The notes beneath the pieces were generated by a model, which was not told the origin of the DNA, made no database searches, and saw only the letters and a program-made list of their open reading frames with translations. A stretch of 64,000 nucleotides of DNA from an uncultured Opitutia bacterium (GTDB lineage Bacteria > Verrucomicrobiota > Verrucomicrobiia > Opitutales > Opitutaceae), in the NCBI GenBank assembly GCA_903840415.1, contig CAIMFY010000101.1, positions 1 to 64,000 of the forward strand, read 5' to 3'. Below, piece by piece: positions 29,401 through 34,541 of this stretch. Each line of letters begins with the position of its first letter. Positions within the stretch are counted from its first letter, which is position 1. The position numbers were made by a program, and so were the translations under genes.

Positions 29401-29658
29401 GAGCTGCGCCGCCGCGAAGGCCGGCCGCTCGCCGAAGCGGTCGTCGAGGCGGGCGCGGTGCGTTTCCGCCCGATGCTGCTCACCGCCCTCGCGGTCATCG
29501 TCGGGGCGAGCGCCATTCTTGGTGATCCGATTTTTCAGGGTCTGGCGCTTTCCCTGATGGCCGGCGAAGTCGCCTCGCTGCTCATCAGCCGCTTCGCGGT
29601 GCCCGTGCTTTACTTCATGGCCAACCGTCGCGCGGCCGAACCCGTCATCCACCCATGA
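26404..29658 (+). CDS. RND-family efflux transporter permease (AcrB/HAE-like)
   Basis: Predicted 1084 aa, the usual length. Twelve TM helices are expected. Porter-domain sequence begins [20 protein letters not shown] with [15 protein letters not shown]4 holds the proton-relay pair in [20 protein letters not shown], and the second half has [20 protein letters not shown]. The subgroup with PREEEPQI at the periplasmic entry is often found near rhodanese/ArsR genes. Substrate is unknown. It overlaps the adaptor and rhodanese genes by 4 bp each, indicating a tightly coupled operon. Confidence 0.92.
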
Positions 29659-30041
29659 ATTTCCTCCAACTATTGAAATCGATGTTCCGCACCGCTCCCC
29701 ATTGTTCCCCGGCCGATTGCGCCGCCCGCGTCCGCAACGGCGAGGCGCTCCTTGTCGATGTCCGTGAACCCAGTGAGTGGACTGACGGTGTCGCGCAGGC
29801 AGCAAACCTGCTCCCGCTGAGCGATCTCACAGGCGGCCGCGCCCAGTGGAAACTATTTCTCGCGGACGCCAACGGCCGTGAAATTTTCCTCTACTGCGCC
29901 TCGGGCGGCCGCTCCGGCATGGCGGCGAAACTGCTCGTCGCCGAAGGCATCCGCGCCGCCAACACCGGCGGCCTCGGCGACTGGCTCGACGCGGGCTGGC
30001 CGATGGCCAAGCCTGCCGCCGTTCGCGAGGCGCCACGCTGA
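29655..30041 (+). CDS. Rhodanese-like sulfurtransferase (cytoplasmic)
   Basis: Predicted 128 aa, a single rhodanese domain: [20 protein letters not shown], the LPLSDL segment, and the catalytic-loop Cys in [17 protein letters not shown], then [14 protein letters not shown]. No signal peptide is evident. Carries sulfane sulfur as a Cys persulfide. The ATGA overlap with the RND gene links sulfur transfer and efflux in one operon. Confidence 0.9.
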
Positions 30042-31623: not shown

Positions 31624-32034
31624 ATGAAAATTAGCACCACGCTCTTATCCCTGATCGCCAGCGCGACGATCGCCTTAGCCGCCGACGTCCAGAAGATCTC
31701 CCCCGCCGACGCCGCCAAACTCGTCGCTGACGGCAAGGCGGTTCTGGTCGATGTCCGCGAGCCCATGGAGTGGGCCGAGACTGGCGTCGCGGCACCCGCC
31801 GTGCTCCTCGCCAAGAGCGATTTCGACGGCGCGCAAAAACTCTGGAAGCCGTTCATCGAGAAAAACGCCGGCAAGGAAATCATCCTCTATTGTCGCTCGG
31901 GCAAACGCGCTAGCGTCGTCGCCGCCGCGCTCGCCGAAAAAGGCCTGAACGTCGCCACCGCCGGCGGCCTGCAAGACTGGATCGCCGCCAGCCTGCCCGT
32001 GCGAAAAGTCGAACCGCCAGTGCCTGGGAAATAG
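31624..32034 (+). CDS. Secreted rhodanese-like sulfurtransferase
   Basis: Predicted 136 aa with signal peptide MKISTTLLSLIASATIALAA, so periplasmic. One rhodanese domain: VLVDVREPMEWAETGVAAPA, catalytic-loop LYCRSGKRASVVAAAL, TAGGLQDWIAA. It resembles the cytoplasmic rhodanese at 29655 and follows the haem protein by 23 bp. The mobile element's target duplication begins at the last base of its TAG stop, so the transposon landed exactly at the gene end without disrupting it. Confidence 0.9.
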   Translation: MKISTTLLSLIASATIALAADVQKISPADAAKLVADGKAVLVDVREPMEWAETGVAAPAVLLAKSDFDGAQKLWKPFIEKNAGKEIILYCRSGKRASVVAAALAEKGLNVATAGGLQDWIAASLPVRKVEPPVPGK

Positions 32035-32041
32035 TCGCCTC
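32034..32041. repeat. Left target-site duplication of the IS5/TnpB element
   Basis: GTCGCCTC at 32034-32041 is repeated exactly at 34534-34541, directly outside the right inverted repeat. A ninth base (G at 32042 and 34542) also matches, so the duplication is 8 or 9 bp depending on where the element is taken to begin. Confidence 0.9.
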
Positions 32042-32056
32042 GGCCCTGTTGCATAA
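32042..32056. repeat. Left terminal inverted repeat of the transposon
   Basis: GGCCCTGTTGCATAA; matches the reverse complement of 34519-34533 at 13 of 15 positions. Confidence 0.9.
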
Positions 32057-32085
32057 ATAGCATCCCGTCCCGGAAGCCATACATG

Positions 32086-33000
32086 TCACGCGAGCGGGGT
32101 GGTGGCCGGCGTGGTCCACTGGTTGAGAATGTGGGCACGCAGCAGCGCCTCGTGTTCCTGATTGGATTCCAAGCGAGAGCGGAGCCGCTGCCCGAAAGCG
32201 GCCTTGAGGCGGTGCATGGCGGACTCGGCGAGAGAACGGCGGTGGTAGCCAACGCCCACTTTCCAATCCGGCCGCCCGAGGAAGCGCGCCTCCTCGATAG
32301 AGCGATTCCGCTCGTGCCAGTCGTCGCCGGGATGAAGCACAGCGCGTTTGCCTGGAGGCGAGATCAACTTGGCGCAATGTCGCTTGGCCGCCGCATAGCA
32401 CATCCGCCGGTCGTAAGCACCATCGCCGATGACAACGGTGCCAGGCTGCGGGCGCGCGACATCCAGCACATTGCCGAGCACCTGACAGTCATGTTTCCGG
32501 CAGGACGTGACAACGCCAGCGACCACGAGCGAAGTTGACGGGTCCACGCCGAGATGGATTTTGCGATACGTGCGTCGCTGCAGTCCATGGACGGTTGTCA
32601 GCCAAGTGCCTGGACCGCGGATTTGAAGTCCGGTGGAATCGACCACGACACACCCGCCGGCCTTCGGCCACGCGGGCAACGCGACGCCGGCTCGCCGGCG
32701 GCAGAGCGTGGACGGGTCCGGCACGGGCAGCGCCCGCAACCCGGCCAGGTCGAGCACCGAGCGCAGCAGCCCGACGGTCTGACGCAGCGGCAACCGATAC
32801 ACCTGCTGCAAGACCAGACCGAGCGCGATCACCGCCTCCGGATACACGAGTGGGCGTCCTCGCTCGCCGGAGGCGCGCGGCTGGCCCCACTTCCGATCGA
32901 GATCGTCGCCGAGGTAAACCGTGAGACTGCCGCGTTGGCGGAGCGCGAGATTATATGCTTTCCAGTGCGGAACATGCTTGCCGGAGCCGAGTCTTGTCAT
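32086..33000 (-). CDS. IS5-family DDE transposase
   Basis: Predicted 304 aa from the ATG at 33000; upstream in-frame codons run into the TnpB gene and are unlikely. The N-terminus (WKAYNLALRQRGSLTVYLGD) is typical of the IS903/IS5 group. The catalytic triad is seen as VVVDSTGLQI (Asp121), VVIGDGAYDRR (Asp193) and RRSLAESAMHRLKAAFG (Glu259). Length is full and no frameshift is seen, so it should be active. It cuts and joins the IR ends. It is divergent from TnpB with only 17 bp between start codons, the space being an 18-bp palindrome. Confidence 0.93.
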   Translation of the reverse strand: MTRLGSGKHVPHWKAYNLALRQRGSLTVYLGDDLDRKWGQPRASGERGRPLVYPEAVIALGLVLQQVYRLPLRQTVGLLRSVLDLAGLRALPVPDPSTLCRRRAGVALPAWPKAGGCVVVDSTGLQIRGPGTWLTTVHGLQRRTYRKIHLGVDPSTSLVVAGVVTSCRKHDCQVLGNVLDVARPQPGTVVIGDGAYDRRMCYAAAKRHCAKLISPPGKRAVLHPGDDWHERNRSIEEARFLGRPDWKVGVGYHRRSLAESAMHRLKAAFGQRLRSRLESNQEHEALLRAHILNQWTTPATTPLA

Positions 33001-33018
33001 AGTGTTCAAATGAACACT
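33001..33018. promoter_or_regulatory. Perfect palindrome between divergent transposase and TnpB starts
   Basis: AGTGTTCA-AA-TGAACACT: two perfect 8-bp arms with a 2-bp centre, filling the gap between the transposase ATG (33000) and the TnpB TTG (33018). It could be an operator through which one product represses both genes, or a small hairpin. Inference from symmetry and position only. Confidence 0.5.
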
Positions 33019-34496
33019 TGCGGCGCGCTGAACTAAAAGTTGAGGACGAAGCCAAAGCGGCGGCGCTGCCGCCGCAAACACTCCGTCGTCGAGTGAAGGC
33101 GTCTGGCTGCGTGCTGGTGATGCAGGAATCCGCGGCGCAGGTGCGCAACGATGCCAACGCGCCACTGCTGGCGGCGCACCACGCCCGAACGAAGCTCCCG
33201 TCGAAGATCGACCTCAAGAAAGCCCTGAAGCACACGCCTTGCGCCATCGCCATGGGGCGAGCGAAACAGGTGCAGTATGCCGTGGACGATGCCTACGCGA
33301 TGGTCGCGTCCTTCCGGAGCAACTTATTTGACTGGATCAAGGACCATTCCTCGCGTTCCGGCAAGCCGAAGCCGCCGCGGTTCTACCGCCGCGGACAGCG
33401 GGCAAGACTGCGCTTCGACTATCAGGATTTTACGGTTCTCCACGATCGCCTTTATTTCCCGGAGTCGCTCGGGCTGGGCGTGATTGCGCTCGTGGATCGG
33501 CAAGGCGAATCGCTACTCAAGCCCGGTGACAGACTGGTCGAGGTTCGCATCGAGCCCTGCCGCTCCCGGCAGTGGGTCGACGTTGACCTTGTGATCCGGC
33601 GCAAGCCCGCGCGACTGATGCCGCGCCTGCTGCTGCGCGGCAATCTCTTCGTCGACCTCGGCGTGGCTCGCCTCGTCACCTGTCTCGACGACGAAAACCT
33701 CCTCGCGTTCTTCGTCTGCGGCGGACTGGCGAAGGCGATCCTGCAACGCGGCGCCAAGTGGCACGCGCAGTTCCGCAGTGAATCCAAACTTGGCATCCGG
33801 CACGGCAAACGCCGGGCCGGGCAACTGGCGGCGCGGAGCGCCCGCCAAATGGACGACTTGATGAAGAAAGTGGCGCTGCTGGTCGTGACCTACGCGCAAG
33901 TTCATCACCTCGCCCGGGTGGTCGTCGGCCGCAACGTGGACTGGAAGCAAAACGTGGACATGGGCGCGAAGCAGAACCAACTGTTCACGTTCATCCCGCA
34001 TGCGAAGTTAATCGCCGCGCTGCGCACGAAGTGCGCCCGGGCCGGTTTAGAATTTATCGAGACGGAGGAGTCGTATACGTCCAAGACGGACCATCTCGCC
34101 CAAGAGGCGATGGGTCCGAAACCGGAGGGTTACCGCTGGCTGGGATCACGCTGCACTCGTGGCAGCTTTCGTTCCAGCGTGGGGTGTGTCCTGCAGGCGG
34201 ACGTAAATGGCTGCATCGGCCTCGGTCGAAAAGTAGGAGGCGAGGAGTGGCTGGCGGTTTTCCGCCAAAAACTCGGAACCTCTCCAGGCACAAGGCTCGT
34301 GCCTCGGAAAGTTCAGGTAAATGGAGTCGGTCCGGAATCAAATAGCCCGGCCGCCGGGACCAGGCATCCCCGCCTGCTGTCCCCCAGAACCTGGATGAAT
34401 ACGCAAGTTGCACTGGTTAAGGCCCGGCTCATCCCCGACCTCCGGTGTGTTACACCCGTAACCCGTAACCCACAGGCGTTCCCCATCGCGGCCTAA
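33018..34496 (+). CDS. tnpB: TnpB (IS605 OrfB/IS1341-like) RuvC-type nuclease
   Basis: Open for 492 codons from a TTG at 33018; the exact start is uncertain. Residues about 80-400 match the TnpB subfamily with a degenerate zinc ribbon: AKQVQYAVDDAYAMVASF, the RuvC-I strand NLFVDLGVARLVT (Asp213), and VVVGRNVDWKQNVDMGAKQ followed by NQLFTFIPHAKL. EESYTSKTDHL (Glu350-351) and the RuvC-III strand VLQADVNGCIGLGRKV (Asp395) complete the match. The usual RuvC-II Glu position is Gly304, so the EES glutamates may substitute. TnpB proteins are RNA-guided DNA nucleases. The frame beyond about residue 410 overlaps a hairpin-rich region and may not be protein-relevant. Confidence 0.82.
   Translation: MRRAELKVEDEAKAAALPPQTLRRRVKASGCVLVMQESAAQVRNDANAPLLAAHHARTKLPSKIDLKKALKHTPCAIAMGRAKQVQYAVDDAYAMVASFRSNLFDWIKDHSSRSGKPKPPRFYRRGQRARLRFDYQDFTVLHDRLYFPESLGLGVIALVDRQGESLLKPGDRLVEVRIEPCRSRQWVDVDLVIRRKPARLMPRLLLRGNLFVDLGVARLVTCLDDENLLAFFVCGGLAKAILQRGAKWHAQFRSESKLGIRHGKRRAGQLAARSARQMDDLMKKVALLVVTYAQVHHLARVVVGRNVDWKQNVDMGAKQNQLFTFIPHAKLIAALRTKCARAGLEFIETEESYTSKTDHLAQEAMGPKPEGYRWLGSRCTRGSFRSSVGCVLQADVNGCIGLGRKVGGEEWLAVFRQKLGTSPGTRLVPRKVQVNGVGPESNSPAAGTRHPRLLSPRTWMNTQVALVKARLIPDLRCVTPVTRNPQAFPIAA
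34252..34400 (+). ncRNA. Candidate omega RNA (TnpB guide RNA scaffold)
   Basis: Four perfect hairpins occur in order downstream of the RuvC-III codons: 34252-34267 (TGGCGG/CCGCCA, TTTT loop), 34286-34304 (AGGCAC/GTGCCT), 34346-34358 (CCCGG/CCGGG) and 34361-34376 (CAGGC/GCCTG). CCAGG/CCTGG (34360-34364 with 34390-34394) can close around the last one. TnpB guide RNAs are made from exactly this position, overlapping the 3' end of tnpB, with the guide being the sequence beyond the element end. The true 3' boundary, perhaps near 34395-34400, is not provable by eye. Confidence 0.5.
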
Positions 34497-34518
34497 CCGC
34501 GGCGGGTATCATCCTGGG

Positions 34519-34533
34519 TTATGCAACAAAGCC
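34519..34533. repeat. Right terminal inverted repeat of the transposon
   Basis: TTATGCAACAAAGCC; its reverse complement GGCTTTGTTGCATAA is the IS903-group end and pairs with 32042-32056. It lies about 1.5 kb farther from the transposase start than in a simple IS5-type element. Confidence 0.9.
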
Positions 34534-34541
34534 GTCGCCTC
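34534..34541. repeat. Right target-site duplication of the IS5/TnpB element
   Basis: GTCGCCTC, identical to 32034-32041. It lies just 3' of the prmB-like gene's stop codon (minus strand, ends at 34545). Confidence 0.9.

Follow-up and report, generated by a model that had tools for sequence, protein, structure and literature searches.

The current analysis concerns a transposable element of an uncultured Opitutia bacterium (family Opitutaceae), found in a 64,000-nucleotide stretch of contig CAIMFY010000101.1 that is hereafter called the window. The element measures 2492 bp (window 32042-34533) and is a complete IS5/IS903-type unit that carries a second gene, tnpB, in addition to its DDE transposase gene (tnp). 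We consider it probable that an Opitutae family of such transposons captured a TnpB-omegaRNA retention module, for which ATA(G) would be the transposon-adjacent motif (TAM), and that the module has been kept as a working part. On the sequence level, this reading rests upon the composite and its repeated transposition, the similar divergence of its two genes, purifying selection on TnpB, an RNA-like right end, and a near-fixed, one-sided ATA(G) at the left flank. The last two of these, together with an alternative-glutamate active site in TnpB, go beyond an earlier description of the window made from its letters and open reading frames (the sequence-only reading).

The element and its two genes

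The element is bounded by 15-bp inverted repeats (IRs), of which the left, GGCCCTGTTGCATAA (32042-32056), matches the complement of the right, TTATGCAACAAAGCC (34519-34533), at 13 of 15 positions. Both are flanked by an exact 8-bp target duplication, GTCGCCTC, at 32034-32041 and 34534-34541, and the following base is a G on both sides, such that the duplication may be counted as 8 or 9 bp; that of IS903 is 9 bp. The sequence-only reading had described these ends, the duplication, and its matching ninth base with correct coordinates. Its claim of an intact DDE transposase is likewise borne out, as the product of tnp (32086-33000, minus strand) scores 225.6 bits on the profile NF033579 (transpos_IS5_2; cut-off 140), exceeds the cut-offs of Pfam DDE_Tnp_1_5 and DDE_Tnp_1, and contains a triad of D121, D193, and E259 (numbered from the ATG at 33000) that is invariant in a six-sequence alignment. 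The transposase, IRs, and 8-9-bp duplication place the element within the IS5 family (IS903-like), although not in the usual single-gene format of approximately 1.05 kb, given its length and its tnpB. It does not conform to IS200/IS605, IS607, or IS1341 elements, in which tnpB stands alone or a Y1 or serine transposase is encoded, and which have neither IRs nor a duplication.

tnpB occupies 33018-34496 on the plus strand, from a putative start codon that is TTG here and ATG in a second copy of the element (C13). Its product scores above the cut-offs of TIGR01766 (42.2 bits; cut-off 32) and the Pfam Cas12f1-like TNB domain (PF07282; 27.2, cut-off 26.3) and below that of PF01385 (19 versus 30.5). 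We aligned 48 TnpB sequences, three from the IS5-TnpB family and 45 from viral contigs, and it is evident that the RuvC D-E-D triad is kept in an alternative arrangement: D213 and D395 are present in all 48 and an alternative glutamate, E351 within an ESYTSK stretch, in 47, while the position of the canonical RuvC-II glutamate is G304 in 48/48. A CxxC pair occurs in none of the 48, and there is accordingly no zinc finger. In Yoon et al. 2023 (PMC10711439), alternative-glutamate proteins are split into a D-phi-G clade and a DPG (Fanzor) clade; the RuvC-I motif of the element's TnpB is DLG. Relative to the pro-Fanzor/Fanzor definition in the same paper (DPG, a C4 zinc finger, and the alternative glutamate), the protein shares the glutamate only.

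An AlphaFold model built from the 48-sequence alignment has a mean predicted local distance difference test score (pLDDT) of 82.0, with residues 438-454 and 476-492 below 50. It resembles ISDra2 TnpB (8h1j; Z 17.0, root-mean-square deviation 6.0, 338 aligned; Foldseek E 9e-12), Cas12f (best Z 18.3), and mimivirus Fanzor2 (Z 15.6), the alignments spanning approximately residues 13-413. The predicted fold is therefore that of TnpB/Cas12f, in agreement with the TnpB-type RuvC gene recognized by the sequence-only reading. A PDB profile search with the deep alignment returned 15 sequences, mostly TnpB and Cas12f. An earlier structure model from five close sequences (pLDDT 37.8) was discarded, and the one match of a PDB profile search with a shallow alignment was taken as chance.

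The viral-contig relatives came from a scan with alignment A3, two single-protein scans of the viral contigs having returned no relative. Among the best 80 of 221 relatives (loci L138-L217), an IS607-type serine recombinase is encoded in the fetched flank of 18, whereas an IS5 transposase was found beside 0/80 (phmmer, E 1e-4) and a Y1 transposase, sought with a single Y1 query, beside 0/80. Of four plasmid TnpB relatives that were read, one is accompanied by an IS200/IS605 transposase, one by an IS607 recombinase, and two by neither. TnpBs that lack a zinc finger and use the alternative glutamate are numerous among viral contigs.

Copies of the composite

The element is beyond a chance assembly, because the source genome (G000) holds a second full-length copy (C13) with the same ends, which is 88% identical and has a duplication matching at 7/8 positions. 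A third copy (C38) is old and decayed, with 65-71% identity over most aligned pieces and part of tnpB missing, yet it retains its own 8-bp duplication; its tnp is interrupted by a transposase gene of the ISAzo13 type (PF07592, 470 bits; 1405-2637 of L008, G000:C38:47500-53000). A further piece, on C39, is a left-end fragment. The genus is represented by two sampled genomes, and the other one (G025) contains 24 DNA matches to the element, many of them at contig ends, while a genome of another genus (G128) contains one full copy and further ends. The sequence-only reading had offered TnpB as a genuine passenger of a mobile composite and named recurrence of the whole unit as the way to check it. 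The complete IR-to-IR unit is indeed present at several loci with differing 8-9-bp duplications, in the source genome and in these two related Opitutae metagenome-assembled genomes (MAGs). Furthermore, the two genes have diverged to a similar extent in 6/6 pairs among four full copies, with identities of 78-91% for TnpB and 79-87% for the transposase.

The distribution of the family is narrow. TnpB matches were obtained in 3/200 genomes of the family Opitutaceae (E 1e-10), and in the class (384 genomes) and phylum (387 genomes) at E 1e-30 in the source genome only. When contigs were scanned for two short peptide patterns, 129 candidate stretches emerged, 5 of which are relatives, from three Opitutae/Opitutaceae MAGs: Umea2p1_bin-1006, whose contigs match G025, Jr-28jun17-119, whose contig matches G128, and palsa_1380. 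With the transposase as query, one further genome, the fourth to match among the 200 of the family, reached 39% identity, and the source genome was the only match among 288 phylum genomes at E 1e-40. Every transposase match above 60% identity comes from a full or partial copy within the TnpB-bearing family. No intact TnpB-less copy close to the element's IS was seen among them; the close matches without tnpB are truncated pieces, such as left ends in G025 (C66, C99, and C20).

At one end of G025:C20 is a left half (L025, 3-1041) that has the left end, two stops in tnp, and a break approximately 50 bases into the tnpB region; the opposite end of the contig (L024, 36007-37404) has a half extending from tnpB to the right end, open from codon 36, without tnp. 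The fragments on G025 C80, C55, C99, C27, and C66 and on G000 C39 are referred to as truncated because their opposite ends were not found in the fetched stretches. In three right ends of G025, L039 (C80), L042 (C12), and L046 (C59), the last ~55-110 bases are conserved and the upstream sequence is unrelated. Such copies have been truncated or recombined, and they retain the candidate RNA end with no tnpB next to it. A clean empty site for the window copy was not seen in G025, where the right neighbour gene is present without the element and the left neighbour differs. In the window, two rhodanese-domain genes (PF00581) lie approximately 1.6 kb apart (29655-30041 and 31624-32034), and the element directly follows the stop codon of the second.

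Selection on tnpB and the right end

Purifying selection acts on codons 36-405 of tnpB: the ratio of nonsynonymous to synonymous rates (omega) is 0.14-0.17 in 10/10 pairs among five sequences, and third positions account for 56-66% of changes. (The G128 transposase rows were left out of the rate analysis.) The final part of the frame is different. Over codons 431-492, third positions account for 36-54% of changes, omega amounts to 0.38-0.92, and the synonymous rate falls short of the core value in 10/10 pairs, a pattern that fits an RNA overlapping a fading reading frame. We therefore regard codons 431 to the right end (34308-34533, plus strand) as a candidate omegaRNA scaffold region, with a paired consensus predicted in 34426-34533. 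When the last 150 bases are aligned over 13 ends, this consensus comprises 19 pairs, with 98.2% of cells paired, and in one hairpin near the right end two neighbouring compensatory pairs change together. In the distant copy C38, identity to the window is 82% over the last 73 bases and 79% over the preceding piece, versus 65% for the long tnp/tnpB stretch; on the left side, it is 71% near the end and 95% for the outermost 20 bases. The evolution of the right end and of the last ~60 codons of tnpB is more RNA-like, as would be expected of an omegaRNA. One sub-threshold Rfam match was taken as chance.

A one-sided mark at insertion sites

If a guide starts behind the right end, it begins with the duplication, and a TAM is for that reason expected just before the left duplication. 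This is precisely where a mark is found. NTAG is present in 15/15 readable left ends, as ATAG in 14 and GTAG in one (G025:C44), and starts 11 bases before the IR in 12 ends and 12 bases before it in three, which places ATA directly before a duplication beginning with G. Correspondingly, right flanks start with G in 14/14 cases. The mark is one-sided, ATA preceding 14/15 left duplications and its mirror, TAT, following 1/14 right duplications (C38, after 8 bp). In the window, ATA occupies 32031-32033 (plus strand), which we propose as the TAM of the empty site, and the right duplication (34534-34541), with the bases behind it, would be the guide. The flank counts omit three ends, namely both ends on G025:C20 (two flank bases each) and the right end on G128:C45 (six). 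Some left and right ends that were counted separately belong to a single insertion split between contigs (e.g. G025 C110 and C63).

TnpB-less relatives, ordinary IS that are the best transposase matches on plasmids, served as controls. Loci L079-L130 were scanned, several of which represent the same place, and the orientation of L093 and L103 was taken from annotation. Eight rows lacked a duplication and were excluded (L086, L090, L102, L107, L110, L112, L117, and L127), and L079, L084, L085, L091, L092, L094, L095, L097, and L098 had no usable end pair. Among the 20 clean-duplication insertions that constitute the control sites (L080-L083, L093, L096, L099-L101, L103, L106, L109, L111, L114, L116, L118, L120, L121, L125, and L126), ATA is at the left flank in 3/20 and ATAG in 2/20, which differs from the 14/15 of the TnpB-bearing family with p 4e-6.

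Discussion

Based upon these features, a working cycle can be proposed. The transposase would excise the element at its IRs and insert it with an 8-9-bp duplication. An RNA from the right end would consist of a scaffold stopping at the IR and a guide supplied by the flanking DNA, comprising the duplication and the bases beyond. The site left after excision, or its counterpart in an element-free sister copy, would consist of ATA, the duplication, and the flank, and hence present the TAM with a full guide match; TnpB would cut this emptied site, and repair would copy the element back. The occupied site poses a particular demand, since an element that duplicates its target leaves at its left flank the TAM and 8-9 guide-matching bases, which TnpB must spare. 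Presumably it is spared because only those bases of the left duplication match behind the TAM; in the window, the tenth base after the TAM differs from the guide. The near-fixation of ATA could have arisen once a transposase that leaned weakly to ATA was joined to a TnpB that requires ATA, with copies lacking a left ATA not being restored after loss. Retention by TnpB has reportedly been the subject of work by Meers et al. in 2023. In IS200/IS605 elements, it is the target rule of the Y1 transposase itself that supplies the TAM. In IS607, the core dinucleotide supplies it (PMC10711439). In plasmids, TnpB is reported to drive IS200/IS605 elements (PMC11870625).

Several observations weigh against this proposal. 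TnpB is below the cut-off of NF040570 (guided_TnpB; 61.5 bits versus 100), and few genomes carry the TnpB-bearing IS5 family. The right-end covariation is modest, consisting of two neighbouring pairs in one lineage only; the fold of the window right end is no stabler than those of shuffles (z -0.89), and Rfam has nothing above threshold there. Next, ATA in 3/20 TnpB-less relatives exceeds the 1 in 64 of chance (p 0.004), suggesting that a weak leaning of the transposase to ATA probably came first and probably accounts for some of the mark. These relatives are also only ~40% identical, so the counts may be compatible with a sharpening of that leaning without any help from TnpB. Lastly, the existence of the RNA, the action of ATA(G) as a TAM, and cutting and retention by TnpB are all inferred from sequence.

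The main rival to the TAM interpretation, and one with an appreciable though clearly smaller likelihood, builds upon the same leaning. In this scenario a genuine, mobile composite exists, but ATA(G) reflects a sharpened, oriented preference of the transposase alone, and TnpB is a passenger with some other role, such as RNA-guided binding or transposition control, or with little role. The weak ATA leaning of the TnpB-less relatives lies on the same side, and oriented site choice is known for other IS transposases (PMC10132070). However, the IRs are near-symmetric while the mark is one-sided, the mark sits exactly where a TAM would be required, and TnpB retains its catalytic residues and is under purifying selection.

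A quite improbable extension is that the TnpB-RNA complex, through ATA and a seed, also sets the place and orientation of IS5 insertion, in which case ATA(G) would arise at insertion and not only via retention. A related reading, in which TnpB and its RNA choose sites by the TAM and a short seed match in a guided or homing-like manner, is very doubtful. It would account for the one-sidedness, and within single genomes two of 98 pairs of sites share at least five bases after ATAG, namely the window and C13 (TCGCC) and G128 C45 (L055) and C98 (L058) (TTTGG), a level reached in 113/20000 column shuffles. This sharing was tested only after the pairs had been noticed, none occurs at five bases among the 14 G025 sites, and five to seven bases are short for a TnpB seed. 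In addition, TAGGTTTGGG is found beside the broken copies in G025:C20 as well as at the G025:C44 site, and a genomic repeat may be as likely a source of the shared TTTGG as guided insertion. The weakest option, an IS1341-like TnpB element nested in a resident IS5 as the sequence-only reading had alternatively proposed, could draw upon how common TnpB-only elements are (PMC3627910) and upon the tnp-less half of G025:C20, but it is hardly credible and is rejected for the window copy, as the IR-to-IR unit recurs at several loci in three genomes, in the copies read the tnpB side runs up to the inverted repeat of the IS, with no further pair of ends seen inside the IS, no intact TnpB-less close copy was encountered, and the tnp half of G025:C20 still holds the start of the tnpB region. 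An old single nesting event may nevertheless be the origin of the family.

Should TnpB function within this DDE transposon, a retention system would be movable to an unrelated transposition chemistry within bacteria, much as Fanzors have been in eukaryotes. The element would likewise be a case for how such a system coexists with a target duplication that leaves the TAM and 8-9 matching bases at the occupied site. As the insertion sites predict the TAM directly, the idea is testable. In those parts of the literature examined, bacterial TnpB is placed in Y1 and serine-recombinase elements, which lack a target duplication. The literature searched yielded no account of TnpB in a bacterial IS5 element, although an earlier notice may have escaped this partial survey.

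When compared with known systems, the element combines features that are otherwise separate. IS903-like members of IS5, including plasmid copies from Nostoc, Pseudanabaena, and Vogesella, have a DDE transposase ~40% identical to that of the element, IRs of the same kind (GGCTTTGTTGCA / GGCGTTGTTGCA), and 8-9-bp duplications, but are 1036-1070 bp in length, lack TnpB, and have the left-flank ATA at the control frequency given above. IS200/IS605 and IS607 elements share the RuvC triad, the fold, a tnpB toward the right end, an RNA-like right end, and a motif just before the site. Unlike the element, they employ a Y1 or serine recombinase without IRs or duplication, and the element's TnpB is set apart by its alternative glutamate and its lack of a zinc finger. 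Another comparison is with alternative-glutamate IS607 TnpBs; the IS607 TnpB assayed in PMC10711439 is that of ISXfa1. A fixed nucleotide follows the right end there as well, being part of the scaffold in ISXfa1 and corresponding to the G of the element. An IS607-type recombinase also adjoins 18 of the 80 viral-contig relatives of the element's TnpB. IS607 elements have a serine recombinase, no IR, and no duplication. A further parallel is with Fanzor1 and Fanzor2 of eukaryotic cut-and-paste transposons, in which a TnpB-like nuclease resides in a DDE transposon with IRs and duplications; PMC3627910 and PMC10711439 place Fanzor1 and some Fanzor2 in DDE transposons, including IS4-like elements linked to algal viruses. 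Fanzor systems differ in belonging to eukaryotes or viruses and in having a DPG motif together with a zinc finger. Their duplications have reportedly been incorporated into the RNA scaffold, whereas those of the element vary except for the first G. By analogy, the element would be best read as a bacterial parallel to the capture of Fanzors by eukaryotic DDE transposons.

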